Below are positions 10,764 through 29,200 of a stretch of DNA of 64,000 nt, piece by piece. Under the pieces are notes generated by a model that saw only the letters and a program-made list of their open reading frames with translations, was not told the origin of the DNA and searched no databases. This stretch comes from Halalkaliarchaeum desulfuricum. GTDB lineage: Archaea; Halobacteriota; Halobacteria; Halobacteriales; Haloferacaceae. How positions within the stretch are numbered: the stretch's first letter is position 1; the number at the start of each line of letters is the position of its first letter. The position numbers and the translations under genes are program-made. The stretch lies in assembly GCF_002952775.1 (NCBI RefSeq), contig NZ_CP025066.1, positions 372,001 to 436,000 of the forward strand, given 5' to 3'.

Positions 10764-10768
10764 TTCTA

Positions 10769-10789
10769 TGTTATAGGATTTCTGTAATA
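10769..10789. promoter_or_regulatory. Operator-like inverted repeat at the binding protein promoter
   Basis: TGTTATA-N7-TGTAATA lies six bases from the binding protein ATG, directly after its TATA-like box on the minus strand. The right arm is identical to that of the palindrome at 14915-14935, the spacing is the same (seven bases), and the left arms agree at five of seven positions. This suggests one regulator acting at both promoters. The position over the start site fits repression. Confidence 0.5.
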
Positions 10790-10835
10790 GATAATAAAAA
10801 CCTTCCGCTGTTCGTTTCCTCGGATCTCACGCGGG

Positions 10836-11837: not shown

Positions 11838-11916
11838 ACCGTGGAGTGCTTGTGTGTCGTCCGTAGTTCTGTCGTTTTCCCACCAGCTATTTATTCGCGG
11901 TGCAGAGATCCGACCT

Positions 11917-12918
11917 ATGGCGGTCGAACTCACGCTCAACTGCGACGACACCGACATCACCCGGGCGCTGTTGACGGGGGAGGTCGACCCCGACGGGATC
12001 GACCTGACCGCGGACACGACATACCCGCCGCGGCGCCACCGGCGGTTCTGCCGCACCGACGCCTACGACGTCGCCGAGCTCTGTCTCGCCTCCTACGTCG
12101 CCTCCCGGGCCGAACCCGAGGAATACCCCTTCACGGCGATCCCGGTGTTCCCGAGCAAAACCTTCAGACACGCCTTCTTTTACAGGCACGTCAACGCCGA
12201 CGTGGACGAGCCGGCCGACCTGGCGGGAAAGAAAGTGGGCGTGCAGTCCTGGCAAACCGCGGCCAACGTCTGGATGCGCGGGATCTCCACGGAGCATCAC
12301 GGACTCGACCTGGAGAGCGTGACGTGGTACCGGCGCCGACAAGACGACGTCGACCGGACCGCCCCCGACCGGTACGACGTCCGGCCGGTTCCGGGCTCCC
12401 AGGGCGGCGATGCGATCGACGAGCCGCGCGACATGCGGGAGCTGTTGTTTGCGGGCGAGCTGGACGCGGTCATGGACCCGTCGGGCTCCCTGCTCGAGGC
12501 AGTCTTCGACTCCGACGATGTCGAGTTCGTGTTCGACGACCCACTGGCGGCCGAACGCGACTACTTCGAAGAAACTGGACTGCACCCGATCATGCACGTG
12601 GTGGCGATCCGCGACGAGGTGCTCGAGGAACATCCGTGGGTCGCCGAGCGGATGTACGAGGCGTTCTGTGAGGCACGCGACGTGGGACTCGAACGAGTCC
12701 GGCGACCGAGCTACAACATGTCGCTCACGTGGGCACACCTCCACCGCCTCGACCAACGCGAAATCATGGGCCCCGGCGAGGAGGTTTGGGAGTACGGGGT
12801 AACGGAGCGAACACGACGAGAACTGTCGAAGTTCGTCGAATACGCCGACGACCAGGGAATAGCCGATCGGGAATACGAGCCCGAAGAGCTGTTCGTCGCT
12901 GATCTGGCCGCCGAGTGA
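11917..12918 (+). CDS. 4,5-dihydroxyphthalate decarboxylase-family protein, paralogue B
   Basis: This protein is also 333 residues and is the closest relative of paralogue A, with long identical stretches such as YPPRRHRRF, EEYPFTAIPVFPS and ADLAGKKVGVQSWQT. Like A it lacks any signal peptide. A TATA-like CTATTTATT at 11887-11895 puts the transcript start at or near the ATG, so it is probably leaderless. The flavin reductase gene follows after 67 bases on the same strand, which suggests a shared transcript and perhaps a flavin-dependent step in the same pathway. A and B probably arose by an inverted duplication and may act on different substrates or form a hetero-oligomer; both ideas are inference. 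Confidence 0.8.
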   Translation: MAVELTLNCDDTDITRALLTGEVDPDGIDLTADTTYPPRRHRRFCRTDAYDVAELCLASYVASRAEPEEYPFTAIPVFPSKTFRHAFFYRHVNADVDEPADLAGKKVGVQSWQTAANVWMRGISTEHHGLDLESVTWYRRRQDDVDRTAPDRYDVRPVPGSQGGDAIDEPRDMRELLFAGELDAVMDPSGSLLEAVFDSDDVEFVFDDPLAAERDYFEETGLHPIMHVVAIRDEVLEEHPWVAERMYEAFCEARDVGLERVRRPSYNMSLTWAHLHRLDQREIMGPGEEVWEYGVTERTRRELSKFVEYADDQGIADREYEPEELFVADLAAE

Positions 12919-12985
12919 CCGTCTCCCCCTGAGACGATCCGAACGGAATAGACACCCTCTTGTTCGTAAAACCGAACGAAGGGAC

Positions 12986-13645
12986 ATGTCGCAGCCGACA
13001 CCGACCGACCGCTTCGACGAAATCTCCGGCATCGACTCCAAGGCCCTCCTGAAGCCGAAGCCGATTGCGCTCGTTGTGACTCAAAGCGAGACCGAGGGAC
13101 CGAACCTGATGACTGCAGCGTGGTGGATGGTCGCGGGGTACAACCCGTTCCGGTATCTGCTGGGAGTGAGCCAGAAGACCTACACCTACGATCTCATCGA
13201 GGAGAATCCCGAGTTCGTTCTGTCGGTTCCGTCGACGGAGCTGATCGACGCGATGATACTCTCCGGAATGGTCAGCGGACGGGAACTCGACAAGATCGAC
13301 CACCTGGACCTCGAGACGATCCCCGGCGCGGAGATCGACGTCCCGATCCTCGCGGACGCCGTCGGCAACATCGAGTGTCGCGTCCTCGACTCCTTCGAGT
13401 TCGAGAACACCACCTACTACTTCGGAGGCGTAGAGAAAGCGTGGGTCACCGAAGGTGGCATGGACGGACGCCTGCTCTCGCTGGAAGAAGACGTGCTCGC
13501 GTACATGGGCAGCGACTGGGCCGACGAGGACGACGACACCAAACACCGCTTTTACGCCGACCTAAGCCCGGAGAACCTCGAATCGTTCCCGGGCGACGAC
13601 GTGCTCGAGGGGCTCCCGGAGGAGCTACAGGAAAAACACCGGTAG
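12986..13645 (+). CDS. Flavin reductase family protein (FMN-binding split barrel)
   Basis: The 219-residue protein has the flavin reductase-like plan: an N-terminal KPKPIALVVT strand, then NLMTAAWWMVAGYNPFRYLLGV and FVLSVPSTELIDAM, regions that bind FMN in the DIM6/NTAB family. Family members reduce free flavin with NAD(P)H for a partner monooxygenase or act directly as flavoprotein reductases; no partner monooxygenase is seen nearby. The acidic C-terminal extension of about 50 residues is typical of haloarchaeal versions. It follows paralogue B and converges with the ABC ATPase gene (35 bases between stops). A role in turning over the imported substrate is inferred from context. Confidence 0.82.
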   Translation: MSQPTPTDRFDEISGIDSKALLKPKPIALVVTQSETEGPNLMTAAWWMVAGYNPFRYLLGVSQKTYTYDLIEENPEFVLSVPSTELIDAMILSGMVSGRELDKIDHLDLETIPGAEIDVPILADAVGNIECRVLDSFEFENTTYYFGGVEKAWVTEGGMDGRLLSLEEDVLAYMGSDWADEDDDTKHRFYADLSPENLESFPGDDVLEGLPEELQEKHR

Positions 13646-13680
13646 TACACCGATGATACGGGACGGTTCCGGCACCGCCA

Positions 13681-14859
13681 TCACTCGCCTGCCGAATACA
13701 GTTTGATCGCGTCTGCGGGCGCTCGGAGGAGAACACGATCCCCACGGTCGAAGTCGCGGACACGATCCGACCGGACGACCACCTCGGTATCGGCGTCCTC
13801 GAACCCGACGGTCACCTCGTAGAGATCCCGCGAAAGTCCCGCCGCGAGAACCGTCCCCCGACGGGAGAGCGCGGCGGGCGCGTCGCCCGCCCCGACGACG
13901 TCGGCACCGACGAAGATGCCGTCTGTACCGGCTGCGCGTCCGCCGTCGGCTGCAGACTCCCGCTGGACGGCGGCGTCCCTGGGCCGAAGGAAACAGTGGA
14001 CGGGGCCGTCAACGTTCGCCGAGTGGACGACGTCGACTGCGTCGACGGGCACCGTACCGAGATCGGTCCGGACGACCCTGCTCCCATCCGAGTCCCACTC
14101 GACCGAGCCGTCGAGGCGGTTCCATTGGCCGACGAAGTCGCGGGTGAACGCCGAAGACGGGCGACGATACAGTTCCCTTGGCGCCCCCCGTTCGACGATA
14201 TCGCCCTCGTTCATCACCAGTACCTTGTCGGCCAGGTAGAACGCCTCCTCCTGGTCGTGCGTGACGTACAGCATACTCACCCCGACCTCCTGCTGGAGCT
14301 TCTGGAGCTCGTACCGCATGTTCGCCCGGAGCTTCTTGTCGAGATTCGACAGCGGCTCGTCGAGCAACAGGAGGTCCGGATCGTGCGCCAGCGCACGCGC
14401 CAGCGCAGTGCGTTGCTGTTGTCCCCCGCTGAGATCCGTCGCAGGCTGGTGTTTCAGCTCGGCGATGTCGACCAGTTCCAGAAGCCAGTCCACCCGTGAC
14501 TCGTACTCGTCTTTCGAAAACGAATGGTCGGCATACTTCAGCGGGAACACCACGTTCTCGTAGACGGACTTGTGTGGCCAGATCGCGTAGTTCTGGTACA
14601 CCATCCCGATTTCCCGATCCTCGGGGGGATGCGACACGTCCGACGAGTACACCGTCTCGCCATCGATTGTGATCTCGCCCCCGTCAGGGGACTCGACGCC
14701 CGCGATACACCGCAGCGTCGTGGTTTTCCCGCAGCCGCTGGGGCCCAGCAACGCCACGATCTCGTCTTCGGCGACGTCGAAACTGACCGCCGAAAGGATC
14801 GACTCCTCCCCGAAGCTCTTGTCGAGGTCACGCACCTGGAGCCGGTTCGTCTCTGTCAT
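13681..14859 (-). CDS. ABC importer ATP-binding protein, Fe(III)/spermidine type
   Basis: The 392-residue ATPase has Walker A GPSGCGKTTT, a Q-loop in MVYQNYAIWPHKSV, the signature LSGGQQQR, Walker B LLLDEPLSNLD and the H-loop VTHDQEE. A TOBE-like C-terminal domain of about 150 residues follows. It is the natural partner of the permease at 7609-9435 and the lipoprotein at 9531-10763, although three genes separate them. It diverges from decarboxylase paralogue C, and a palindrome in the shared 108-base gap overlaps a TATA-like TTTATTAC for this gene. The ATPase at 2915-4087 has the same architecture but a different promoter motif, so the two probably serve different importers. Confidence 0.87.
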   Translation of the reverse strand: MTETNRLQVRDLDKSFGEESILSAVSFDVAEDEIVALLGPSGCGKTTTLRCIAGVESPDGGEITIDGETVYSSDVSHPPEDREIGMVYQNYAIWPHKSVYENVVFPLKYADHSFSKDEYESRVDWLLELVDIAELKHQPATDLSGGQQQRTALARALAHDPDLLLLDEPLSNLDKKLRANMRYELQKLQQEVGVSMLYVTHDQEEAFYLADKVLVMNEGDIVERGAPRELYRRPSSAFTRDFVGQWNRLDGSVEWDSDGSRVVRTDLGTVPVDAVDVVHSANVDGPVHCFLRPRDAAVQRESAADGGRAAGTDGIFVGADVVGAGDAPAALSRRGTVLAAGLSRDLYEVTVGFEDADTEVVVRSDRVRDFDRGDRVLLRAPADAIKLYSAGE

Positions 14860-14914
14860 GTGTGGAGTAGGTCGCCTGACCGATGTGCCGCCGGGATCGA
14901 CCGTTCGTATTCCA

Positions 14915-14935
14915 TATTACAAGTTCCATGTAATA
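14915..14935. promoter_or_regulatory. Palindromic operator between ABC ATPase and paralogue C
   Basis: TATTACA-N7-TGTAATA is a perfect inverted repeat with seven-base arms in the divergent gap between the ATPase and decarboxylase paralogue C. It overlaps TATA-like sequences in both directions. The arms and spacing match the site at 10769-10789, so one regulator could co-ordinate uptake and conversion genes. No regulator gene was recognised within the locus. Confidence 0.6.
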
Positions 14936-14967
14936 AACGATGGGGTTCCCGATCGTTCGGTGCGAAT

Positions 14968-15960
14968 ATGGTTCACGGGCAGAAACCCCAGAGCATGCTC
15001 GACCTCTCGCTTGCGTGTGGTCGGTACGAGTGGACCCGCGGACTGTGGGATGGGAACGTCTCGCCGGAGGGAATCGACCTCTCGATCCTGGAGTATCACA
15101 ACCCCGAGCGGTTCGTGCGGATGGCGAACAATCTGGAGTTCGACGCATGCGAACTCTCCATGGGCACGTACCTCGCAACCCGATTCCGCCCGGAACAGTA
15201 CCCGTTTACGGCGATCCCGGTGTTTCCGCACCGACGATTCAGACATTCGTACATTTACAGGCGGATCGACGCCGACATCGACACACCACAGGATCTGGAG
15301 GGAAAACGCGTCGGCGTCGTAAACTGGCAGACGACGACCGGAATCTGGCAGCGCGGGATCCTGCGGGAGCAGTACGGACTCGACACGAGGAGCGTCGACT
15401 GGCACCGCGTCGGATCCGAGATCGTCCCGATCGAAATCCCCAATGAGTATTCGGTGACGGATCTCGATCCGGGCGGCGGAACCGTTCCGTACATGGAGGA
15501 ACTGCTTCGATCGGGTGACCTGGACGCAGTGTTGCATCCCGTGCCGTTGCAGGTGCCGGAGGCCGAACGATTGTTCGAAGAACCCATCGCCGAAGAGCAG
15601 GCCTATTTCGAGGAAACCGGGATCTTTCCGATCATGCACGCGATCGTCCTGAAGGACGAACTCCTCGCGGAACACCCGTGGATCGTCCAGAAGCTCTACG
15701 ACGCTTTCGAAAACGCAAAACAGGAGTGCCTTCGACGGCTGGAGCGTCCACAGTGGGTCCCGCTTCTGTGGGCCGATATCCACGCCGAACGACAGCGCGA
15801 ACTACTCGAGGATCCCTGGGAATACGGACTGACGGAGACCAACCGGAACGTACTGAACACGCTGGTGGAGTACGCACACCGACAGGGAATCGCAGACCGT
15901 CGGTACGACCTCGAGGAACTGTTCGCCACCGAATCGCTGGAAATCGGGACGTTCGGTTGA
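14968..15960 (+). CDS. 4,5-dihydroxyphthalate decarboxylase-family protein, paralogue C
   Basis: This 330-residue protein is more distant from A and B but keeps the family pattern: GNVSPEGIDLS, EFDACELSMGTYL, QYPFTAIPVFPHRRFRH, EETGIFPIMHAIV and AEHPWIV. The C-terminal YDLEELFATESLE is like bacterial dihydroxyphthalate decarboxylases. It has no signal peptide. An in-frame ATG at 14995 aligns better with the starts of A and B, so the true protein may be nine residues shorter. It diverges from the ABC ATPase across the palindromic operator. As for A and B the substrate is unknown; decarboxylation is inferred from family and context. Confidence 0.8.
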   Translation: MVHGQKPQSMLDLSLACGRYEWTRGLWDGNVSPEGIDLSILEYHNPERFVRMANNLEFDACELSMGTYLATRFRPEQYPFTAIPVFPHRRFRHSYIYRRIDADIDTPQDLEGKRVGVVNWQTTTGIWQRGILREQYGLDTRSVDWHRVGSEIVPIEIPNEYSVTDLDPGGGTVPYMEELLRSGDLDAVLHPVPLQVPEAERLFEEPIAEEQAYFEETGIFPIMHAIVLKDELLAEHPWIVQKLYDAFENAKQECLRRLERPQWVPLLWADIHAERQRELLEDPWEYGLTETNRNVLNTLVEYAHRQGIADRRYDLEELFATESLEIGTFG

Positions 15961-16027
15961 GACCCGCCGCTCTCGAAGCGAACCTCAAAAACGGAAAAAC
16001 GACGACGAAAAACGGTCGTTTCCGCGG

Positions 16028-16156
16028 TTATTCGCCGTCCGGACCGAACCGGGAGGCGAGTTTTTCGAACGGACTCTGCGTCTGCGACAGCAGTTCCGAA
16101 TCGACTGTTCCCATCAACTGTACGTTTTCGAACGAACGTGCGCTCTTATGCGACAT
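16028..16156 (-). CDS. Possible 42-residue protein of unknown function
   Basis: A minus-strand ATG opens a 42-codon frame with haloarchaeal codon use, ending FGPDGE. A TATA-like GGTTTATCC lies about 30 bases upstream, which would suit a leaderless transcript. It is polar with no membrane segment or metal motif, and I do not recognise it. It fills the gap after paralogue C and converges with it. It could be a chance ORF. Confidence 0.35.
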   Translation of the reverse strand: MSHKSARSFENVQLMGTVDSELLSQTQSPFEKLASRFGPDGE

Positions 16157-16502
16157 CGTATGTAAACTTAGTACCTAGAACCGGATAAACCCTTTCGTAC
16201 ATAGTTTTAAATTCGGAAAAATAACCCAAACGTTCATACTATACATCGAACAATCATGAACGATTTTCGAAAGGACTGGGCCAGCACGTGTCGTCGAAAG
16301 AGAACTCGTATCGGTCGGCGATTCCGATCTCGGTTCCCACGTCGATGTCGACGCATGGAATCTTCAAACGAAAATTTATTAATATACATACATTTGGAAG
16401 AAAATATGAACACCGAGTATTGATCGGCGGAGTGCTCCTCACCTAAATACCCTTGCGCACCAGGCAGCAACCTCTTGAGGGTGGTATAAGTTATTATGGG
16501 AC
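16157..16502. other. AT-rich gap with a possible gene remnant
   Basis: About 345 bases without a convincing gene. AT-rich flanks surround a GC-richer island at 16254-16360. Read on the minus strand, this gives a protein-like stretch (VDIDVGTEIGIADRYEFSF) running to a stop, but the upstream half of that frame is of different, non-haloarchaeal composition. This looks like the decayed end of an old gene; I could not identify it. TATA-like words near 16485 (GGTATAAGTTATTA) probably serve the next gene. Confidence 0.35.
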
Positions 16503-16697
16503 ATGGATGTACTTCTGAACGAAGTCACACACACGGTACACAAATACGAACGGGACAAGTCGGATTTTCAAACCGAGTGTGGGATCCATCACCACCTCTC
16601 TCATGACAATCTCCAACCCACCTCGGACGACCAGCTACTGACTGCAAAAAACGCCAGTAAATGCGGCCGATGCTTCGATGGCGAAGGCGGCTACTGA
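16503..16697 (+). CDS. Small Cys/His-containing haloarchaeal protein
   Basis: The 64-residue protein has a Cys and His pattern suggestive of a small zinc-binding fold: TECG near residue 24, HHH near residue 29, and a C-terminal CGRCFDGEGGY. Similar small proteins ending in CGRCF recur in haloarchaeal genomes as I recall, with no known function. A TATA-like GGTATAAGTT lies about 20 bases upstream, so the mRNA is nearly leaderless. It converges with the next minus-strand ORF, with a strong hairpin in between. Confidence 0.55.
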   Translation: MDVLLNEVTHTVHKYERDKSDFQTECGIHHHLSHDNLQPTSDDQLLTAKNASKCGRCFDGEGGY

Positions 16698-16728
16698 CGT
16701 AGGTGTTCTAAAGGAAACAGCGAGAGTT

Positions 16729-16750
16729 CCACGGGTCACCCGACCCGTGG
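16729..16750. terminator. Strong hairpin between two convergent small genes
   Basis: CCACGGGTC and GACCCGTGG form a perfect nine-pair stem around a four-base loop, midway between two convergent genes (stops at 16697 and 16775). It could end transcription from both sides. Similar GC-rich hairpins also mark the ends of IS200/IS605-type elements, so an insertion-sequence scar is an alternative. No transposase remnant was seen. Confidence 0.4.
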
Positions 16751-16774
16751 TCGTTTACTTCCCGGGAGCCGTAC

Positions 16775-16969
16775 TTATTTGTCGTCGAGGTCAGTAGCCA
16801 GTTCGTCAATCACCACGTCCCAGGCGTGCGTTCTTCCGTTCGTTTGAAACTCCCAGGCACCGCGCACATCCACGTCTGCCTGGACGGCTTGCTCGATGGC
16901 CTCGGCGAGAACCGCCTCGAAGTCGTCGCCACTGGTAATCGAAATGTCGCGGTGTTGATCGCGTGTCAT
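16775..16969 (-). CDS. Small conserved haloarchaeal protein, unknown function
   Basis: The 64-residue acidic protein has the pattern DDFEAVLAEAIEQAVQ (amphipathic helix) and then VDVRGAWEFQTNG-HAWDVVIDEL, which I recall from a widespread family of short haloarchaeal hypothetical proteins. There is no signal peptide or metal motif. It sits alone between the hairpin and the Bat-type regulator promoter region. Function unknown; the repeated occurrence of this pattern supports a real gene. Confidence 0.55.
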   Translation of the reverse strand: MTRDQHRDISITSGDDFEAVLAEAIEQAVQADVDVRGAWEFQTNGRTHAWDVVIDELATDLDDK

Positions 16970-17190
16970 GATTTGATGACCACAAGCCTCAACTCGAAGA
17001 GATGGGGACTACCCGCGACCACATCCTCACCACGTCGGCCACACTTCGCGAAGGGCGTTCGGTCCATCTGCTTTCAGCGACACACACCTTAAGGGCTGTC
17101 GCTCTGCATGGCTCACCATGCTTTTCTCCCCGGGTTGGTCAACCAGGCCACCTATATTTACCAGTATCGATCACAATCATCGATCAAGGA
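16970..17190. promoter_or_regulatory. Leader/promoter region of the Bat-type regulator
   Basis: This 221-base gap has no likely gene. It contains a GCATGG-CTCA-CCATGC hairpin followed by TTTT at 17106-17125, a GGTTG-GT-CAACC palindrome at 17133-17144 and a TATA-like CCTATATTTACC at 17151-17162, 29 bases before the ATG at 17191. The direct repeat ATCGATCA occurs twice just before the ATG (17167-17174 and 17180-17187). The palindrome immediately upstream of the TATA box is a candidate operator. Confidence 0.45.
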
Positions 17191-17877
17191 ATGGCAGTCA
17201 TCGCGCATCTTCGGGTTCCGGCTGACTCGTTCGAACTCGGTCGGATCCTCGAACTGGAAGCCGACGGAACGATCGAACTCGAAAACATGATTCCGATGGG
17301 CGAGAAAGCCGTTCCGTTCTTCTCAGTGAGCGAGGACGTCCGAGAATCCTTCGAGCGAAACGTCGAGAATCACCCATCGGTCGATCGCATCGTCGAAGTG
17401 ACGCGCCACGACAGCGAGCGACTGTATTCGCTGGACTGGAACGTTTCCCGCGACGTATTCTTCCAGGGGATCATCGATCTGCAGGGACAACTCCTGAGTG
17501 GCACTGGAACAGTCGACACGTGGGAGTTCGAGATTCGGTTTCTCACCCACGAGAGACTCGGTGAGTTTCAAGACCACTGTTCGAATGCGCACATCCCCCT
17601 CGAAGTCGGACGCATCTACAACCCCGTCCGTCCGGGGACCGGTATGTGGTACGGAGTGACAGGACCGCAGCGTGAAGCGCTCATGTGTGCTGTGCAGGGT
17701 GGATACTACTCGATTCCGCGAGAGATGTCCACGCAGGAACTGGCTGACGAACTCGGGATCTCCGATCAGGCTGCCACAGAACGACTGCGGCGGGCGATCG
17801 AGACGCTCACCGAAAATACACTCGTTGCAATGCAAGAAGAGCGCGACGAGGAGTTCGAGCAACCCCTGGATTCCTGA
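17191..17877 (+). CDS. Bat-type helix-turn-helix transcription regulator
   Basis: This 228-residue protein matches the bacterio-opsin-activator-like family of haloarchaea. An N-terminal sensor-like domain of about 150 residues is followed by the HTH_10 domain from residue about 155 (TGPQREALMCAVQGGYY, then STQELADELGISDQAATERLRRA). It would bind DNA and activate or repress in response to a signal taken by the N-terminal domain. The frame is open further upstream, but the ATG at 17191 has a well-placed TATA box 29-40 bases before it. The large double histidine kinase follows 160 bases downstream on the same strand, but no receiver domain links them, so a functional pairing is only suggested. 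Confidence 0.85.
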   Translation: MAVIAHLRVPADSFELGRILELEADGTIELENMIPMGEKAVPFFSVSEDVRESFERNVENHPSVDRIVEVTRHDSERLYSLDWNVSRDVFFQGIIDLQGQLLSGTGTVDTWEFEIRFLTHERLGEFQDHCSNAHIPLEVGRIYNPVRPGTGMWYGVTGPQREALMCAVQGGYYSIPREMSTQELADELGISDQAATERLRRAIETLTENTLVAMQEERDEEFEQPLDS

Positions 17878-18038
17878 TGCGTCTCCTCCCTCTTCGGACT
17901 CGGGTGAGGACTACTGTTTCGTGTACTACTTAATAACAATTGTACATCATGCATCGAAAAGAACCGTGAGAGAACTGTATAGAAGCGCATGAGAATATTG
18001 TCTCGATTTCATCAAAGCGAGCCTGAGGCGAAGGCACT

Positions 18039-21000
18039 ATGACCGCACCAGTAACGGACGGGGCTACGACAGCAACACCCAAAGCGGCCAGAAAAGAACT
18101 CTACGAGATCTTCCGAGAGGACACTCCCTTCGAACAGAAAGCGCGTGAAGCCCTCGAACTCGGCAGGCAGTACCTCGGCGTAGACAACGGGCATCTCACC
18201 AGGATCGATCAGGAAACCGACCACTGGGAAGCGATCGTCAGCACCGACTCGTCAGATGGACGCTTTCCCACAGGGCTGGAACTCGATCTCGGCACCACAT
18301 ACTGCCGTCGAACGATCGAGACCAACGCTCAGCACACACTCCACGATGCACCGAACCAGGGGTGGGAAGACGACCCGGCGTTCGAAGCCCACGGCCTGGC
18401 CTGCTATCATGGCACGTCACTCGTTCTCGATGATGAACCCTACGGTACGGTTTGTTTCGTCGGTGAAGACCCGCGAGATCCGTTCAGTGACGACGAAAGC
18501 ATGTTTGCAGAACTCATCGCCCGGAATCTCGAACGCGAACTCGAACGCGAGCACCACGAAGCCCAACTCACGAGACAGACCAACCTCGCCACGGTTCTCA
18601 ACCGGGTGCTTCGACACAATCTCAAAAACGACATGTCCGTCATTCGGGGGTATACTCAGCTCATGTCCGACGAGTTGGGCGCTCCGTCGTACAGTAAGAC
18701 CACACTCGACAACATCGATAACCTTCTCGACTTGAGCGAGAAGGCCCGCGAGTTGAATCGGTTCGTCAATACCGACTTCGAGCGCACACCCACAGAAATT
18801 ACGGAACTCGTCGAGGACCTGGCCCAAACGGTGCGTGCGAACTATCCAGATGTGTCAATCACTGTCGAATACGACGACGACATCACCGCCGCAGTCCTTC
18901 CGAGTCTGGACCGGGCGCTGACCGAACTGATCGATAACGCCGCCAAGCACGGCGGCGACACGGCCATCGTGACGGTCACTGTCGCGTCCGTGCCGAACGC
19001 CGTCGAGATCCGAATCGTGGATGACGGACCTGGGCTGGACGACGAAGAAGCCGAGGTACTGAAGACGGGGAGCGAGACGCCGTTAGTTCACGGCAGCGGA
19101 CTCGGATTGTGGCTGGCTCACTGGATCGTCTCCAGTCACGGCGGGTCGATCGACGCAACCAGCTCCGACGACGGGACGAGCATGACGGTTTCCGTCCCGC
19201 GAAAGCCGACGGCAAACGTCGACGAAGAACTGACGAAACTCACGCAGGCCCGCGACCAGTATCAGGCCGCCTTCGAAGGGGCTTACGACGCGATGATCAT
19301 CGTCAATGACGACGCCCAAATCATCGATGCCAATTCGAAAGCAAGCCAGATCTACGGTATGGACGAACAGGAGTTGCTCGGACAACCACTCGCACGCTTC
19401 TTCCCGGACGACTTCGATTTCGACGCGTTCTGGCGGCAGTCCCACGAGCAAGGAACGGACCTGAACACGATGATGCTCCTCGGTGCGGATGGCGTCGAAC
19501 GGACCGTCGAATACTCTGCCGCAAACAAGATCGTCCCCGGCCAGACCCTCCTCGTCAGTCGGAACGTTACCGATCGCCTCGAACGAGAGCAGGCACTACA
19601 GGAGACGACCCAGCAACTCGACGCGGTTTTCGACGCGTCTCCGGATCCGATCATTGCTGTTGATATTGACGGAAGTATCCAGCTGTGGAACGACTCCGCC
19701 GAATCCCTGTTTGGCTACAGCCAAGGGGAAGTCAAGGGCCAGCAGATCCAGGGTCTCGACCTGTTTCCTGCCGGGACGGAATCTGACTTCCAGGCCCGCT
19801 TCGAACGGGCACTGGATGGCGAGGTGTTCGAGAATCTCGAAGTCGAGCAACGCAGCAGGGACGGTAAACTGATCGATCTCAGCATCTCGACGGCCCCACT
19901 CCGCGACGAGATGGGTGAGGTCTCCGGGATCATGGCCGTTGTCACAGACATCACCGAACGCAAAGAGCGCGAACGGGGGTTACGCGAAACGAAACAGCGT
20001 CTCGACCTGGCGCTCCAGGGATCTGACACGGGTGTCTGGGACTGGAACATGGACACTGACGACCTCTACTGGGATGAGACCATGGAACGACTATTCGCCC
20101 TCGAACCCGGCACCTTCGAGGGAACGCTCGACGCGTTTATCCGACGAATCCATCCGGCTGACCGAAGCCATGTCGAGACTGCCATCCAGGAGAGCATCGA
20201 GTCCGAAGAAGGGTACGAAGCCACATTCCGTATCCAGCGTGACGATGGCGAACAACGCTGGATGAACGGCCGCGGTGAAGTCTGCTTCAATGACGGTTGC
20301 GAGCGATTGATCGGTGTCCTCACCGACGTCACCCAACGGAAGGAACACGAACTTGCGGTGGAATCGGCAACAGAGCGATACGAGTCCTTACTGGACGCAG
20401 CTCCGGATCCGGTGTTCGTCGCGGATACTGAGACGGGTGAGATACTCGAGGCCAACGAGGCTGCCGAAACACTGACCGGAGAACCGAAGGAACACCTCAT
20501 CGGCCGTCACCACTCGACAATTCATCCCACTGGGGACGCCGAGTTGCATCGGGAGGCGTTCACACGGGCCAAGGAAGAACGGACGACTGTCCAGGCGCTG
20601 TCGGATGGCTCGCAGCTGGAGATGGAAACAGCCGACGGGGGCACCATCCCAATCGAGATCAGCGTCAATACGGTCTCACTCCCGGATGGGGATGTCACGT
20701 TCGGTATCTTTCGAGACCTGGAACTGGCACAGAAAAAAGAGCGGCTGGAAGCGGTCGCCAGTATCCTGTCTCACGACCTCCGAAACCCACTCAACGTCGC
20801 CCAGGGGCGGTTGGATCTACTGAAAGAGGAGTACCAAAGTGAGCATATAGCACCCATCGAGAATGCGCACGATCGCATCGAAGTGCTGATCGAAGACGTG
20901 TTGACACTCGCCCGCAACGGTGACACGGTGGGGGAAACGGAGCCACTCTTGCTTTCGGACCTCGTCGAGTCCTGTTGGAGGACCGTTGACACGGCAGACG

Positions 21001-21398
21001 CCTCGCTCGTCGTCGAGACGGAACGGACGATCCAAGCCGACAAGAGTCGTCTGCGGCAACTCGTCGAGAACGTGTTCCGGAACAGCGTGGAACATAGTTC
21101 CACGAGCAATCGGCCGCAGGCCGATGACGCGATCGACCACGGTGGTGACGACGTGACGATCACTGTTGGTGATCTGGATGACGGATTCTACATCGGAGAC
21201 AACGGCCCCGGTTTCCCGGCAGACGAGCGCGATCGAGTCTTCGAATTTGGCTACTCGACGACCACCGAGGGGACGGGCTTGGGCCTTGCGATCGTCCAGG
21301 AAATCGCCGAGGCACACGGCTGGGATATCTCCGTCACCGAGAGCGATTCCGGTGGGGCACGATTCGAAATGACTGGCGTTGCGGTCGCTGCAGAATAG
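18039..21398 (+). CDS. Multi-sensor protein with two complete histidine kinase modules
   Basis: The 1119-residue soluble protein carries, in order: a GAF-like domain (about 30-165); a first kinase with H193 in LRHNLKND, ATP-site motifs DDGPGLDDE and GSGLGLW (to about 390); about four PAS domains (about 400-890); and a second kinase with H912 in LSHDLRNPLNV, DNGPGF and GTGLGLAI. No transmembrane segment or receiver domain was seen, so it senses internal cues such as redox, light or small ligands. Single-kinase proteins of this kind are common in haloarchaea; two intact catalytic modules in one chain are unusual. The frame is continuous and both H- and G-box motifs look intact. No response regulator is adjacent. 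Confidence 0.9.
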   Translation: MTAPVTDGATTATPKAARKELYEIFREDTPFEQKAREALELGRQYLGVDNGHLTRIDQETDHWEAIVSTDSSDGRFPTGLELDLGTTYCRRTIETNAQHTLHDAPNQGWEDDPAFEAHGLACYHGTSLVLDDEPYGTVCFVGEDPRDPFSDDESMFAELIARNLERELEREHHEAQLTRQTNLATVLNRVLRHNLKNDMSVIRGYTQLMSDELGAPSYSKTTLDNIDNLLDLSEKARELNRFVNTDFERTPTEITELVEDLAQTVRANYPDVSITVEYDDDITAAVLPSLDRALTELIDNAAKHGGDTAIVTVTVASVPNAVEIRIVDDGPGLDDEEAEVLKTGSETPLVHGSGLGLWLAHWIVSSHGGSIDATSSDDGTSMTVSVPRKPTANVDEELTKLTQARDQYQAAFEGAYDAMIIVNDDAQIIDANSKASQIYGMDEQELLGQPLARFFPDDFDFDAFWRQSHEQGTDLNTMMLLGADGVERTVEYSAANKIVPGQTLLVSRNVTDRLEREQALQETTQQLDAVFDASPDPIIAVDIDGSIQLWNDSAESLFGYSQGEVKGQQIQGLDLFPAGTESDFQARFERALDGEVFENLEVEQRSRDGKLIDLSISTAPLRDEMGEVSGIMAVVTDITERKERERGLRETKQRLDLALQGSDTGVWDWNMDTDDLYWDETMERLFALEPGTFEGTLDAFIRRIHPADRSHVETAIQESIESEEGYEATFRIQRDDGEQRWMNGRGEVCFNDGCERLIGVLTDVTQRKEHELAVESATERYESLLDAAPDPVFVADTETGEILEANEAAETLTGEPKEHLIGRHHSTIHPTGDAELHREAFTRAKEERTTVQALSDGSQLEMETADGGTIPIEISVNTVSLPDGDVTFGIFRDLELAQKKERLEAVASILSHDLRNPLNVAQGRLDLLKEEYQSEHIAPIENAHDRIEVLIEDVLTLARNGDTVGETEPLLLSDLVESCWRTVDTADASLVVETERTIQADKSRLRQLVENVFRNSVEHSSTSNRPQADDAIDHGGDDVTITVGDLDDGFYIGDNGPGFPADERDRVFEFGYSTTTEGTGLGLAIVQEIAEAHGWDISVTESDSGGARFEMTGVAVAAE

Positions 21399-21491
21399 AC
21401 GCTCTTGATTCGGCGGGTGAGCTGATCCGGGATCGAGCGAGTCGAGAGACGTCGATCCTCTTCATGGCGGAAGACGTCAACTACCAGACGT

Positions 21492-21770
21492 TCACGTGGC
21501 ACTCGGTCCACCGTCTCTGTAGATTCGAACCTCCTCGGCAGTGATTGCGACCCAGTGACCCCAGATGCGGGTGCTCAGACGAACCGGGCGGCAAGTCCAG
21601 TCGAGAGTCTCGAAGACGTCAGCCTCGACCCAATCGTGGAGCGTCGTCGGTTTCTCGTGTACATCGACCTCGACAGCGAGGAAGGCATTTACTACTGCCT
21701 CAGTTATTTCCTCTCCGCTACTAAGCGAGTACGAAACCAGGAGATCGGGTTTCCGTTCGCTCGAGGACAT
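21492..21770 (-). CDS. HalOD1 output domain protein
   Basis: The protein of about 92 residues resembles the halobacterial output domain HalOD1: LSSGEEITEAVVNAFLAVE, a short proline-containing linker (usually PPL, here KPTTL), a DVFETLDW helix, and a C-terminal pair of strands (HWVAITAEEVRIY). HalOD1 proteins occur near two-component genes in haloarchaea, with unknown biochemical role. The frame runs on to a GTG at 21815, but the ATG at 21770 better fits the TATA-like AATAAAAA at about 21824-21831 and the usual domain start. It lies between the double kinase (convergent) and the oxidoreductase gene (same strand). Confidence 0.6.
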   Translation of the reverse strand: MSSSERKPDLLVSYSLSSGEEITEAVVNAFLAVEVDVHEKPTTLHDWVEADVFETLDWTCRPVRLSTRIWGHWVAITAEEVRIYRDGGPSAT

Positions 21771-21841
21771 GCTCGAAATTGGACGGTCAATACAGAAATC
21801 ATACTGGTCTTGCACACCAGGGTTTTTATTTGAACCACCAC

Positions 21842-23536
21842 TCAGGGCGAATCTACTGCCGGAACGGCCCCCGCGTCGACCGCGTCGTCGGGAACAGTCC
21901 CGTCGGGGTTCCAGCCGCGTTCCTCGTAGTACTCTTCGATCGCCGCCGCGAGATCGGGGATTTCGTAAGGTAGTCGGTCGTCCGCACGATCTTTCCCCCG
22001 TTTGTTGTTGAAGTGACGCTCCCGTTCGACCGTCCTGGCGCCCACTGCGAGCAGGTTCTCGTAGTCCGCACCGAGAAGCGCCGCCAGTCGCTCGTCTGTG
22101 ATGTAATCACCTGAGAACGCACAGATGATGGCCGAATCCCGAACCGCGTTGCGGTTCTCCTTTTTCACCAGCAGTTCGCTTTTCCCGAGTGTTCCCTCTG
22201 GATCGATCTCGCCGTTATACTCCGGACCCAGCATCCCGCCGTACATGTGGTCTGCACCGCGGTTGGCCACCGCATACGACAGACCCTGCCCGTGGAGCAC
22301 GCGGCCGTCGTGGGCGGCGAACTCCATCCCTTTTACCGTGTAGTTGTCGACGCCGAGTTCCTCGTGGGCGCGGGAGACCCCCTCCGCGAGCAGGTCGCCG
22401 ATTCCCTCCCGGTGGGCGATCCGTTCGGTCACCTGGCGTGCGAGTTCGGCGTCGCCGAAGGCGTCCTCGCTTTTGAGGTACGCGGCGACGGTCACGCCCG
22501 CCGAGATGGTGTCCATCCCGAGTTCGTCACACAGCTCGTTTGCCTTCATCACGTCCACGATGTCGCCGACGCCCTGGCTGGAGCCGAACGCGTACACCGT
22601 CTCGAACTCCGGGCCTTCGGTCTCGATCCCTTCCGTCTCGTCGCGAGTGGGGAGCTTGCAGGCGTAGGCACACGACGAGCAGGTGCCGGTGCGATACTTC
22701 TTCTCCTCGACTGCGTCGCCGCCGATCCCCGCGGCGTCCTCGAAGTGGTACTCCTCGAAGTATCGGGTCGGAAGCGAGAAGTTCTCGTTGATGAACTCCG
22801 TGCCGCCGGTGGTGCCCTGGCGTTTCATCCGGTCGTCCGAGGTCGCCGCCTCCCGGTGGATCTCCGACTCCGGCGGATCGGGAACCTCGAGTTCGGGTCG
22901 GGAGTCGCCAGCGAAGGTGACGCACTTGACGTTCTTCGAGCCCAGCACCGCGCCGAGGCCGCCGCGACCGAACGCCCGCGAGTCGAACGTCATCACGGAC
23001 GCGAACCGGACCAGGTTCTCGCCCGCCGGGCCGATCGCAATGCAGTTTTCGGGTCCGAGATCGTGGTAGTCCTCCATGTAGTCGGACGTCTCCGAGACGG
23101 TCGCTCCCTCGAGTTCGGGGACGGATTCGAACGTGACACGGGGTCGGCCCTCCCCGTCGGAATCGCGAACGTGTACTGCGAGTAGTTCGTCGCTCGCGCC
23201 GACGAGTTCGAACACCGAGTAGCCGGTGTCCGCGAAGTTCCGCGAGAGGAATCCCCCGGCGTTCGTCGAGGCGAGCCCGTCGGAAAGCGGCGACAGCCCG
23301 GTCATCGACATGCGTCCGGTGAACGACGTTTGACTCGTCTGTAACGGCCCCGTCGCGAGGTACGCCCGGTTTTCGGGCCCGAACGGATCGGCGTCGAACG
23401 GGATCCGCTCGTGGGCCAGCGCGGTCGCGACCGCCCGGCCGCCGATGTGGCTAGCGAGGAGGTCGTCGATCTCGGTTGCGGTTGCGGTCCGCTCGCTCAC
23501 GTCGACGGTGAGAAGCGGCCCCTTCGCGTGGAGCAT
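21842..23536 (-). CDS. Aldehyde:ferredoxin oxidoreductase (tungstopterin enzyme)
   Basis: This 564-residue cytoplasmic enzyme belongs to the AOR family, which oxidises aldehydes to acids with ferredoxin as acceptor, using tungsten-bis-pterin and one [4Fe-4S] cluster. Cluster ligands are CSSCAYAC near residue 288 and a distal cysteine in IICAFSG near residue 485. The N-terminal domain shows the GPLLTVDVSERTATATEI start and SDGLASTNAGGF. The start is set at the ATG coding MLHAKGPL, since the extra 17 upstream codons do not look like the family. Several paralogues are usual in haloarchaea. An amino acid importer lies upstream on the same strand; oxidation of amino-acid-derived aldehydes is possible but inferred. 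Confidence 0.9.
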   Translation of the reverse strand: MLHAKGPLLTVDVSERTATATEIDDLLASHIGGRAVATALAHERIPFDADPFGPENRAYLATGPLQTSQTSFTGRMSMTGLSPLSDGLASTNAGGFLSRNFADTGYSVFELVGASDELLAVHVRDSDGEGRPRVTFESVPELEGATVSETSDYMEDYHDLGPENCIAIGPAGENLVRFASVMTFDSRAFGRGGLGAVLGSKNVKCVTFAGDSRPELEVPDPPESEIHREAATSDDRMKRQGTTGGTEFINENFSLPTRYFEEYHFEDAAGIGGDAVEEKKYRTGTCSSCAYACKLPTRDETEGIETEGPEFETVYAFGSSQGVGDIVDVMKANELCDELGMDTISAGVTVAAYLKSEDAFGDAELARQVTERIAHREGIGDLLAEGVSRAHEELGVDNYTVKGMEFAAHDGRVLHGQGLSYAVANRGADHMYGGMLGPEYNGEIDPEGTLGKSELLVKKENRNAVRDSAIICAFSGDYITDERLAALLGADYENLLAVGARTVERERHFNNKRGKDRADDRLPYEIPDLAAAIEEYYEERGWNPDGTVPDDAVDAGAVPAVDSP

Positions 23537-23621
23537 ACTCGAAGCATCCGACCGGGCAGTCTTAAACGCTGGCGTGGGGGGCGACACTGCCGGGACGACC
23601 GACCCGCCACGAGTCGGCCGC

Positions 23622-24566
23622 TCACCGCTCGCTTCCGGTGCCGACCCCGGGAATCGCGGTCTTCCGTTCGATCCATGCCATCACGTTGGAGGCAGTGAGC
23701 ACCAAGGCGAGATACAGTAGGCCGACGACGACGAATATCGCGGTGTACCGGAACGTATCGGAGGCGATCGCGAACGCCCGGTAGTACAGTTCGGGGACAG
23801 TGATGAATGCCGCGAGCGAGGAGTACTTGATGAGGTAGACGAACTCGTTGGTCCAGGAGGGGATCGCGTACCGGAGCCCTTGCGGGAGAACGACGTAGTA
23901 GATCGTCTCGATCTTCGTGAGCCCGATCGCCCGACCCGCGGTTATCTGTCCCGTCTCGACGCTCTCTAACGATCCACGGATGTACTCCGCCTGATAGGCG
24001 GCGCCGTTGAGGATGAACCCGACGATCGCGACCCACACGACGTTCCGCGGGAACACCCCTTCGAGGAACGTCGGGACGTATCCGCCGATGTTGAGACCGA
24101 AGTGGAGCACGAACAGCTGTGCGAGAAGCGGCGTCCCCCGAAGCAGTTCCGTGTACGCGAGTGAAGCGTACGCCGAATAGTTGCCGTACACACGCGTCAC
24201 CGCGAGCGGAACTGCAATGAAGAAGCCGACGAAGAGGCTCGACAGCGTGATCAACACGGTGAGCCACAGCCCGCCCGCAAGTCGGGGGAGCGTCTCGACG
24301 GCGAAGGCGATCCCGCCGGCGTAGGCTCCCATCACCGGCAGTCCCGCCAGTGCCGCTTCTACTGCCGCCGCTGGAACCATCGGCTCCCCGTCGGGCACGA
24401 ACGGCTCCCCGAGCCACCGGTTCACCCACCGGAACAGCACCCATCCCCAGAACACCGCGCCGGCGACGTACAGCGCCAGCCGACCGACCGAGGGCGTCGC
24501 CTCGTCGACGCGGCCCCGAATCGTCGCGGGACGGGTCGTACCCGAGGGTGTGGTGGTGTCTGGCAT
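23622..24566 (-). CDS. Polar amino acid ABC transporter permease (second)
   Basis: The 314-residue membrane protein matches the HisM/GlnP permease family, with an extra N-terminal span and an insertion before the core. The permease core has VPLAVTRVYGNYSAYASLAYTELLRGTPLL and the EAA loop with GQITAGRAIGLTKIE. It is the last gene of a four-gene operon, starting one base after the ATPase stop. Together with the permease at 25359-26132 it forms the heterodimeric channel. Substrate is most likely a polar or charged amino acid. Confidence 0.87.
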   Translation of the reverse strand: MPDTTTPSGTTRPATIRGRVDEATPSVGRLALYVAGAVFWGWVLFRWVNRWLGEPFVPDGEPMVPAAAVEAALAGLPVMGAYAGGIAFAVETLPRLAGGLWLTVLITLSSLFVGFFIAVPLAVTRVYGNYSAYASLAYTELLRGTPLLAQLFVLHFGLNIGGYVPTFLEGVFPRNVVWVAIVGFILNGAAYQAEYIRGSLESVETGQITAGRAIGLTKIETIYYVVLPQGLRYAIPSWTNEFVYLIKYSSLAAFITVPELYYRAFAIASDTFRYTAIFVVVGLLYLALVLTASNVMAWIERKTAIPGVGTGSER

Positions 24567-24567
24567 G

Positions 24568-25362
24568 TCAGTCGTGGAGCTGCGTGATCCGGCTGAGAAA
24601 CTGCGCGGTCCGATCGCGCTCGGGGTGTTCGAACAGCTGTTCGGGGGGCCCGCGCTCGACGACGGCGCCGCCGTCGAGGAAGACGATTTCGTCGGCGACA
24701 GATCGGGCGAAGCTCATCTCGTGGGTGACCACGAGCATCGTCATGCCCTCCTCGACGAGGTCGTGCATTACCTCGAGCACCTCGCCGACGAGTTCGGGGT
24801 CCAGCGCGCTGGTCGGCTCGTCGAACAGCATCAGCTTCGGCTCCATCGCCAGCGCCCGCGCGATGCCGACCCGCTGTTTCTGCCCGCCGGAGAGCTCCGC
24901 CGGATACGAGTCGACCTGCGGGGCGAGTCCGACCTGTTCGAGCTGCCGTCGGGCACGATCGCGGGCCGTCTGCTTGTCGAGGTCCAGCACGCGCTGTGGC
25001 CCGAGAGCGACGTTCCCGAGTGCAGTGAGGTGAGCGAAGAGATTGATGTCCTGAAACACCATCCCGACCTCGCGGCGGAGACGATTTACGTCCATGTCGG
25101 ATGCGGTGACCAGTTCGCCGTCGAGGTAGATGTCGCCCTCCTGGGCGTCAGTGAGTCGGTTTACACACCGGAGCATGGTCGACTTCCCGCTGCCGCTGGG
25201 GCCGATAAGCACGGTGACGTCGCCTTTCTCCATCTCGAAGCTGACCTCTCGCAACACCTGCTCGTCCCCGTACCACTTCGAGACGTTCTCGACCCGCAGT
25301 AGGTCGTCCTGTACGCCGTCCAGTTTCCGTTCGGTGTCTGTACTCGTGTCGTCTCGTCTCAT
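24568..25362 (-). CDS. Polar amino acid ABC transporter ATP-binding protein
   Basis: This 264-residue protein is a GlnQ/HisP-type ATPase: Walker A GPSGSGKSTML, Q-loop VFQDINLFAHLTAL, signature LSGGQKQR, Walker B LMLFDEPTSALDPE and VTHEMSFAR. Its start overlaps the end of the upstream permease gene by four bases (ATGA), which points to translational coupling. It lacks the TOBE domain found on the Fe(III)-type ATPases elsewhere in the window. It energises uptake for the adjacent permeases. Confidence 0.92.
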   Translation of the reverse strand: MRRDDTSTDTERKLDGVQDDLLRVENVSKWYGDEQVLREVSFEMEKGDVTVLIGPSGSGKSTMLRCVNRLTDAQEGDIYLDGELVTASDMDVNRLRREVGMVFQDINLFAHLTALGNVALGPQRVLDLDKQTARDRARRQLEQVGLAPQVDSYPAELSGGQKQRVGIARALAMEPKLMLFDEPTSALDPELVGEVLEVMHDLVEEGMTMLVVTHEMSFARSVADEIVFLDGGAVVERGPPEQLFEHPERDRTAQFLSRITQLHD

Positions 25363-26132
25363 GTCGTCTCACCCGAGGGGATCGCGTAGTAGTCGCTGAC
25401 GTAATCCAGCGCGCGGTTCGTCGAGAACGTGAGCACGAAGTAGATCGCACTGATAAACAGGATGATCTCCAGCACCGCGGTGTTGCCCTCCGCGGTGGTG
25501 AACAGCTGATAGCTGCGGGTCAGTAGCTCCGCGAGGCCGATCGCGAAGACAATACTCGTGTCCTTTAACACGATGGTCACTTCGTTTTGAAAGCCCGGCA
25601 CCGAGCGTCGGAGCGCCTGCGGAACGACGACGTGTCGAACCGCATTGCGTTTCGTCATGCCGATGGCCCTGGCCGCCTCGAGCTGGCCGCTGTGGACGCT
25701 TTGTAAAGACGCGCGAAAGATCTGTGACTGGTAGGCGCCGCTACGGAGGCCGAGCCCGAGGATGCCGGCGACGACCGCGCCGGAGATGGTCGTAAAGCCG
25801 AAGTAGAGGTCCGGAGCGCGAAGGATGAAGTACATGAAAATCAGGATAACGACGATCGGTGTTCCCCGGAGAACGATACCGACCGTCTCGACGAACGTCC
25901 GGCTGTACCGGCCGCCGTACACCTCGATCGCGCCTGCCGGGAAGCCGACTGCAAATCCCAGGAGGATGCTCGCGATCGTCAACCCGATCGTGACGACCAG
26001 CCCGCCGAAGAGGTAATCCAGGTTGTCGAGGACGTACAGCCAGTCCTCGAGGTCGCCGACGAACAACAGCGTGTCGGCTACTGGACCGAATAGCGAGCCC
26101 GGGATCGTCACGGAACCCGCCGCGGACGGCAT
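25359..26132 (-). CDS. Polar amino acid ABC transporter permease (first)
   Basis: The 257-residue membrane protein has the five- to six-span fold of the amino acid permease family: GLVVTIGLTIASILLG, a GTPIVVILIFMYF segment and the EAA loop SGQLEAARAIGMTKR that contacts the ATPase. Its ATG overlaps the stop of the binding protein gene by one base, and its end overlaps the ATPase gene. The pairing with a second permease gene in the same operon is typical of histidine, glutamine and arginine importers. Confidence 0.9.
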   Translation of the reverse strand: MPSAAGSVTIPGSLFGPVADTLLFVGDLEDWLYVLDNLDYLFGGLVVTIGLTIASILLGFAVGFPAGAIEVYGGRYSRTFVETVGIVLRGTPIVVILIFMYFILRAPDLYFGFTTISGAVVAGILGLGLRSGAYQSQIFRASLQSVHSGQLEAARAIGMTKRNAVRHVVVPQALRRSVPGFQNEVTIVLKDTSIVFAIGLAELLTRSYQLFTTAEGNTAVLEIILFISAIYFVLTFSTNRALDYVSDYYAIPSGETT

Positions 26133-26920
26133 TACTCGCCGAACCAGCGGGCGGTGATCTCCTCGTAGGTTCCGTCGTCCTGGACCACAGCGAGGCCATC
26201 GTTGAGCCCGGCCTGGACGTCTTCGTCGGCCTGCCGGATGCCGAACCCGAACTGCTCGCCAGTCTCGAAGACGAACGCGACCTCGACGTCACGCTGGGCG
26301 GCGAACGTCTCGGCCACCGGCTGGTCGAGTACGATCGCGTCGATGTTCTCGTTTTCGAGGTCCTGGACTGCCAGCACGTAGTTCCCGTACCGACTGAAGT
26401 CGTCCTCGGTGATGATCCCCGGCTCGATGAGCTCGCTTTCGACGACACCCGCTCCGGTGGTCCCCTCCTGGGCGCCGACCGTCACACCATCGAAGTCGCC
26501 GAAGGAGGTCGGCTGGAAGTCGCCGCCCTCACGGACGAGAACCGTCTGGTCTGCGCTGTAGTACGGGTTCGAGAAGGCGATCGACTCCTGGCGATCCTCG
26601 GTGATCGTCATCGCGGCGGCGATCACGTCGATCCGCTCGTTTTGCAGCGCCGGAATGAGCGAGGAGAACTCGAACTCCTCCCACTCGTCGAGTTCGTAGT
26701 CGGTCTCGGCGACGACCGCCTCGAGCAGGTCGATGTCGTACCCGACAAGTTCGCCGTCCTCGATCATCTCGAACGGCGGGAAGCCCGGGGCGGTGCCCGG
26801 CGTCAGCAGGTCGTCGCCACCCAGACAGCCTGCGGTGGCAGTCAATCCGGCGACGGCGGACCCTCCAGTCAGTTGCAAGTACGTCCGACGGCTTACGGAA
26901 TCGGTGACGTGGCGTGTCAT
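26132..26920 (-). CDS. Polar amino acid-binding lipoprotein of an ABC importer
   Basis: The 262-residue protein begins with a twin-arginine lipoprotein signal (SRRTYLQLTGG, then a lipobox ending AGC near residue 32). The mature part has the family-3 solute-binding fold: GTAPGFPPFEMIEDGELVGYDID, FSSLIPALQNERIDVIAAAM and GFGIRQADEDVQ. The motif order is that of binding proteins for glutamine, arginine or histidine. An ATG at 26920 is preferred over the TTG four codons upstream. It is the first gene of the operon followed by permease, ATPase and permease. Confidence 0.9.
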   Translation of the reverse strand: MTRHVTDSVSRRTYLQLTGGSAVAGLTATAGCLGGDDLLTPGTAPGFPPFEMIEDGELVGYDIDLLEAVVAETDYELDEWEEFEFSSLIPALQNERIDVIAAAMTITEDRQESIAFSNPYYSADQTVLVREGGDFQPTSFGDFDGVTVGAQEGTTGAGVVESELIEPGIITEDDFSRYGNYVLAVQDLENENIDAIVLDQPVAETFAAQRDVEVAFVFETGEQFGFGIRQADEDVQAGLNDGLAVVQDDGTYEEITARWFGE

Positions 26921-27024
26921 ACTCAGTTGCAACGGCGAGGAGCGGTTTCAACCTTTCTGGTGTCGACGCACTCGCAAATTTTGCACGGGCAAGGCGACAA
27001 CCGGCGATGATTCGACTCGGCGGA

Positions 27025-27906: not shown

Positions 27907-28018
27907 TGAAACACTGTCGGGGTGGCGGCTACTTGAGCGTTTCAGTCGCAGGAGTCCACCTGATTCGAATCCCGCAGGGCACACGCCGCATTCAAGTCGG
28001 CGACAACGAAGCTACAGT

Positions 28019-29164: not shown

Positions 29165-29200
29165 GAAACCTATTTGTCGAAGGGCTGATACAGGGCGGAC

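Follow-up and report, generated by a model that had tools for sequence, protein, structure and literature searches.

A receiver-less histidine kinase with two different cores in Halalkaliarchaeum desulfuricum, its fused and split relatives in haloarchaea, and its Bat-type neighbour

The kinase gene, its domains and the integrity of its frame

We analyzed a stretch of 64,000 nucleotides of Halalkaliarchaeum desulfuricum (contig NZ_CP025066.1, positions 372,001 to 436,000), here called the window, in which one open frame encodes a sensor histidine kinase with two kinase cores, and a gene for a Bat-type regulator lies 161 nt upstream on the same strand. The features are the following, in window coordinates, with the type of evidence in brackets.

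16265..21859, no strand: stretch with the Bat and kinase genes, absent in the sister species G001 (genome comparison)
17191..17877, +: Bat-type regulator (BAT + HTH_10), 228 aa, start chosen by us (Pfam)
18039..21398, stop included, +: two-core sensor histidine kinase, 1119 aa (open frame, Pfam)
18132..18539, +: GAF domain, residues 32-167 (Pfam PF01590)
18552..19238, +: kinase core 1 (HK1), residues 172-400, RHNxRN class (HATPase_c, HisKA, PDB, class alignment)
18615-18617, +: H193 of core 1
19245..20708, +: four PAS domains, residues ~403-890 (PAS-model matches in all four pieces)
20703..21389, +: kinase core 2 (HK2), residues 889-1117, HDLRN class (HisKA, HATPase_c, PDB)
20772-20774, +: H912 of core 2

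The kinase frame starts with ATG and has no internal stop. Over the whole chain, Pfam gives the GAF domain, two HATPase_c matches, two HisKA matches, and four PAS stretches (four each with PF00989 and TIGR00229), and a piecewise scan matched HisKA and HATPase_c separately in each core. No Response_reg or Hpt match was found in the 1119-aa chain up to E = 1, and a receiver hidden between the cores is ruled out, given that the four PAS domains fill that region. The protein therefore lacks the receiver that lies between the cores in TodS-like kinases and has the make-up of the HK1HK2 type, namely two cores, no REC, and no HPt. An earlier note, made from the letters of the window, had described two complete kinase modules in one chain, with a GAF domain before the first, about four PAS domains between them, and no receiver; Pfam agrees with this domain order, and the two modules hold as anatomy, judging from the H, N, G1, and G2 boxes that each core has for itself. 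An AlphaFold model built with four aligned sequences was too poor for use (mean pLDDT 45.3, pTM 0.23).

The earlier note had named an assembly fusion as the finding that would overturn its claim, and this was checked and ruled out. Third-position G+C stays between 0.63 and 0.79 along the frame in 300-nt steps, without any step at a possible join, and at the locus L075 of the genome G043 there is a 1109-aa protein with the same domain order that aligns with residues 11-1119 at 46.5% identity; the proteins of L021 and L077 are also collinear, but with a shorter middle. The collinear homologue and the even composition make an assembly join very unlikely, and we give next to no credence to an assembly or frame artefact as the explanation of the two-core frame.

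The same note had called the architecture unusual, which is true within this genome, where 17 HATPase_c matches fall in 16 frames and only the frame at 18039-21398 has two of them; it is not a new type, given that HK1HK2 is a listed one, recorded as rare, with 450 proteins in 310 of 7,609 species (PMC4558063; this and the other sources given by PMC number are cited for the parts covered). Among 89 HATPase_c matches in four other haloarchaeal genomes, none shared a frame with another when the listing was read by eye.

Two cores of different classes

Core 2 has all that is expected of a HisKA kinase, with an acidic H+1 residue in its H-box SHDLRN around H912, N, G1, and G2 boxes, and the motifs SHDLRNPL, ENVFRNSVEH, GDNGPGF, and TEGTGLGL; it scores 50.4 bits with HisKA, above the Pfam cut-off of 26.9, and 74.2 bits with HATPase_c. 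Core 1 also has N, G1, and G2 boxes of its own in the class alignment and an ATP-binding domain, its HATPase_c score being 65.5 bits, above the cut-off of 26.4. Its HisKA score is 23.2 bits, below the cut-off, and its H-box, RHNLKN with H193, reads H-N-L-K-N in place of the pattern H-E/D-x-x-N/T, with the histidine and the H+4 asparagine kept and the acid at H+1 replaced by Asn. Consequently, the earlier statement that both histidines lie in proper H-boxes stands for H912 and fails for H193, where Asn instead of Glu or Asp follows the histidine, whereas the separate ATP-binding motifs that it placed after each H-box are indeed there. It was also right that the cores are not close copies: each scores 485 or 492 bits with its own query versus 33-35 bits with the query of the other core, as befits remote relatives. 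The best PDB match of core 1 is EnvZ (chain 4kp4, 2.5e-12), and that of core 2 is ZraS (9jfj, 4.3e-13), with CpxA and others matched too.

This difference is a property of the two classes. In the core-1 class, whose 57 rows are defined below, H+1 is Asn in 56 rows and Asp in one, whereas it is Asp or Glu in all 24 core-2-class rows; H+4 is Asn in 57/57 and 22/24 rows, respectively, and all 11 fused proteins combine Asn at H+1 of core 1 with Asp in the second core. Among the haloarchaeal kinases read, the RHNxRN H-box without an acidic H+1 is frequent, single-core kinases included. In the window's own genome, four of the 11 other single-core kinases read have Asn at H+1; the frame at 749104 (2140 aa) was left out of this reading, and frames in L127, L131, and L132 with weak core matches (scores 19-24) were excluded from the kinase count. 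A literature search for the strings HNLRN, HNIRN, and HNVRN returned no paper on archaeal kinases, judged by titles.

We did not adopt the view that core 1 is simply dead, since single-core kinases have this H-box as well, and the four in the own genome would have to be dead too. In the Myxococcus kinase CrdS, kinase activity was lost and phosphatase activity spared when the H+1 Glu was changed to Ala, Asp, Gln, or Gly, the H+4 Asn was required for the phosphatase activity only, and Ala mutants of three further HisKA kinases, HK853 among them, agreed with this (PMC3510030). The same source reports that an Asn or Thr at H+4 was required for phosphatase activity in the bacterial HisKA kinases tested. 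With the H+1 Asn of core 1, these mutant data suggest that core 1 may be phosphatase-biased, although Asn was not among the bacterial H+1 substitutions (Ala, Asp, Gln, and Gly), which were made in an H-box context different from that of core 1. Against such a bias stand the four single-core kinases of the own genome with Asn at H+1, and also the HWE/HisKA_2 kinases with a basic residue at H+1, which are active. Being of different types, the two cores possibly do different jobs.

Fused and split forms and their neighbours

Core 1 with the PAS part that follows it was searched in 391 genomes of the window's own class (E <= 1e-50), scoring the best five first-look candidates per genome, and the core-1 class was found at no fewer than 55 places in at least 48 genomes. 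The 57 rows used for counting are these 55 places minus L088, plus two rows of G037 and L110 (a MAG); L088 was left out as one core 1 broken over two matches, L109 and L111 as copies of L063 and L067, and cores under 150 bits were left out of the counts, some loci ending at contig ends. In eleven rows the frame also encodes a second core, 34 rows continue for at least 60 further residues without one, and 12 end at core 1. PAS domains follow core 1 in all 12 scanned of the 34 extended rows and in 11/11 fused ones. Core 1 is a member of a class found in haloarchaea, often with PAS domains after the core. The family search for the full-length architecture that the earlier note had proposed returned the collinear protein of L075 and a two-core form in 11 of 57 rows.

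The fused rows belong to G000, G034 (three rows), G127 (Halorubrum sp. 48-1-W), G043, G109, G219, G303, G230, and G037. Their second core is of the HDLRN or HDLRS kind in nine rows and of RHDIR type in G127 and G037, and ten of the 11 proteins have no receiver, that of G037 having an N-terminal one. In a twelfth case, L084, carried by a plasmid of Halanaeroarchaeum sp. HSR-CO (G357), the gene is interrupted at 7018-7029 by two in-frame stops, after the last PAS domain and just ahead of core 2, and is annotated as two genes in the public record. The loci L024 and L025 of G021, which carry TAG marks, gave no second core. A search of 72,556 plasmid records (E <= 1e-40) gave 123 with a match, none of them reaching 60% identity, and one plasmid place covers at least 80% of the query, spanning two genes.

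The two halves of the protein also exist apart. Residues 1 to ~650 match free-standing GAF-HK1-PAS-PAS genes (L024: residues 4-645, 52%), and the C-terminal remainder matches REC-PAS-HK2 genes, at 33-35% in L080 and L086. In L080, L081, and L086, a GAF-HK1-PAS-PAS gene is followed by a core-2 gene on one strand, with 9, 9, and 62 nt, respectively, from the stop to the first ATG of the core-2 gene, which is REC-PAS-HK2 by Pfam in L080 and L086, the REC of L081 having been found by similarity. As far as alignment reading goes, the REC of L080, L086, and L094 has an Asp at the usual place. Altogether, 45 loci are not fused, with the interrupted L084 set aside, and at ten of them a core-2-class frame lies no more than 600 nt away, in six cases on the same strand. 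Adjacency of kinase genes is supporting evidence only, not proof of partnership, because neighbouring kinase genes occur elsewhere too, one pair of them in the own genome (L120); the same-strand split pairs nonetheless make a functional pairing of the two cores plausible. By its domains, the fused protein looks like a split pair minus the receiver, and the fusion origin suggested in the earlier note is probable, given that the halves match free-standing genes that stand side by side at three loci.

A single origin of the fusion was weighed on two trees. On the core-1 tree, the fused state requires 9 changes, only 2 of them forced by supported branches, and shuffled labels gave a mean of 10.2 changes, with a value as low in 91 of 500 shuffles. 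On the core-2 tree, where 3 of 41 inner branches are starred, the nine fused rows require 9 changes versus a shuffled mean of 8.4, and the fused core-2 sequences are scattered.

The regulator upstream of the kinase belongs to a Bat-HTH_10 family that recurs beside fused kinases. Close homologues (213-235 bits) lie divergently from the kinase at L021 and upstream on the same strand at L075 and L077, and the same Bat neighbour is found in three genera. A close Bat gene thus stands beside 4 of 11 fused loci versus 0 of 46 other core-1 loci (Fisher p = 0.0008, uncorrected for kinship among the loci), with weaker matches (16-23 bits; L076, L080, and L092) excluded from the count, and the other seven fused loci have none. 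Bat is the only neighbour common to window positions 10000-30000 and the other fused loci (frames of at least 100 aa, E <= 1e-8).

Other neighbours occur as well. Two fused kinases of G034 and the interrupted one of Halanaeroarchaeum follow a series of PAS-STAS, STAS, and anti-sigma-type (RsbT-like) ATPase genes, with a SpoIIE phosphatase also read at L023 (G034) and L153 (Halanaeroarchaeum sp. HSR-CO plasmid), in the order of the stressosome modules rsbRSTX. Such a stressosome-like series followed by a large two-core kinase was seen at three loci (L022, L023, and L149 of G034; L153). Stressosome modules have been described in some archaea and, in Vibrio, next to two-component genes (PMC9237108).

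A possible division of labour, its alternatives and the history of the locus

Several known systems resemble this kinase in part. The HK1HK2 census type shares with it two cores without receiver or HPt in one chain; that census gives counts, and the parts of it covered describe neither a class difference between the cores nor a split and fused pairing in haloarchaea (PMC4558063). TodS of Pseudomonas putida (PAS1-HK1-REC-PAS2-HK2) likewise has two PAS-linked cores and no membrane part, but there an essential relay receiver lies between the cores, and the haloarchaeal protein has none (PMC4861429). Archaeal REC-HisK proteins share the PAS array with a HisKA core behind it at the C-terminus, and the core-2 relatives of L080 and L086 are of this kind, whereas in the two-core kinase a GAF-HK1-PAS-PAS module occupies the place of the REC (PMC5847659). 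MsmS and RdmS of Methanosarcina are also archaeal PAS/GAF kinases with linked regulators that lack a receiver, but they have no phosphorylatable histidine, which both cores described here possess (PMC6944256). The parts covered of the archaeal census contain no such haloarchaeal two-core type (PMC5847659), and a literature search on two-core kinases gave no paper on this architecture, judged by titles. Receiver-less two-core kinases are then already known as a type (PMC4558063), and what we add is the core-1 class with its fused and split forms, the class difference at H+1, and the Bat neighbourhood.

Our preferred reading, held tentatively and with somewhat less than even confidence, is that this two-core switch represents, in fused form, a kinase pair that recurs in haloarchaea, with core 2 as the donor and core 1 as the modulating or opposing partner. 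The chain, presumably cytosolic, would act as a homodimer; its GAF domain would supply input to core 1, of the RHNxRN class, and its PAS array would couple core 1 to core 2, the canonical HisKA core of the HDLRN class. Core 2 would be the phosphate-donating kinase, and core 1 would set or oppose the state of its pathway, a role proposed for a core in which the H+4 Asn associated with phosphatase activity is present and the H+1 acid associated with kinase activity is missing. The output would probably reach transcription via the neighbouring Bat-HTH_10 regulator; as neither the kinase nor Bat has a receiver, Bat would be contacted directly or served by a receiver protein in trans. Against Bat as the output stand the seven of 11 fused loci that have no close Bat gene and the stressosome-like neighbours in G034 and Halanaeroarchaeum.

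The main alternative is a TodS-like relay with the receiver in trans, in which core 1 would phosphorylate either a separate receiver or that of a REC-PAS-HK2 kinase, and core 2 would work downstream. TodS does require HK1, receiver, and HK2 in series (PMC4861429), a REC precedes HK2 in split relatives and, as the alignment reads, has its Asp in the usual place in L080, L086, and L094, REC is matched eight times in the own genome, in three cases within a frame that has an HATPase_c match as well, and Galperin et al. proposed REC-HisK proteins as possible cascade intermediates (PMC5847659). However, the chain and the Bat gene both lack a receiver, the closest match to one lies ~42 kb away at window position 63376, and the H+1 residue of core 1 is Asn, and we regard such a relay as possible but rather unlikely. 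It is unlikely, too, that the chain holds two independent kinases, each with its own regulator, which the fusion only keeps in equal amounts or in one place: that second cores of two classes are joined to core 1, and that the fused core-2 sequences do not cluster on their tree, is what loose mixing would give, but the pairing recurs, its order is conserved, and the same Bat neighbour accompanies it in three genera.

Two further readings concern core 1 itself. If the RHNxRN cores formed a haloarchaeal class dedicated to phosphatase or antagonist function, the fused protein would be a single-chain kinase-versus-phosphatase switch, with GAF input to the opposing core, PAS input to the donor core, and their ratio read by the receiver-less Bat-type regulator; we consider this full version doubtful. 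More improbable still would be a core 1 that serves only as a dimerising, ATP-binding structural module without phosphotransfer, which the prevalence of Asn at H+1 and the HisKA score below the cut-off would suit; the histidine and the H+4 Asn kept in 57/57 rows, with the ATP boxes largely kept, tell against it, because a module with only a structural role would be expected to lose them.

The interest of the finding lies in the fact that haloarchaea have many kinases, which are poorly characterised, and that the signal route from them to DNA is an open question, DNA-binding domains being present on only a few archaeal receivers (PMC5847659, PMC6944256). A kinase pair, fused or adjacent, with a consistent difference at H+1, the position that distinguishes kinase from phosphatase activity in the bacterial HisKA proteins tested, and in some cases a Bat neighbour, makes a small test system, in which the division of labour between the cores is addressable with two point mutations.

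With regard to the history of the locus, the flanks are joined in the sister species G001, with 83 nt in place of 16265-21859, and both a gain in the own species and a loss in the sister fit. The G+C content is 0.57 in Bat, 0.59 in the kinase, and 0.51 at 15961-17001, against 0.63 in the window; low G+C is here a weak mark of foreign origin, because L120 in the own genome holds two other kinase genes with values just as low (0.58 and 0.56). Near 16706-16758, a short piece has two other copies in the genome, 90-93% identical, and is possibly a small mobile repeat. Bat has a second copy, with 766 of 790 bases identical between window 17089-17877 and G000:C1:1675926-1676714; the two copies share a long identical middle, and their differences are clustered in the HTH part, as after gene conversion. 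Downstream, at 21842-26132 on the minus strand and thus convergent with the kinase, an aldehyde ferredoxin oxidoreductase gene adjoins an ABC transporter (two permeases and one ATPase), and the sister species has this stretch too.
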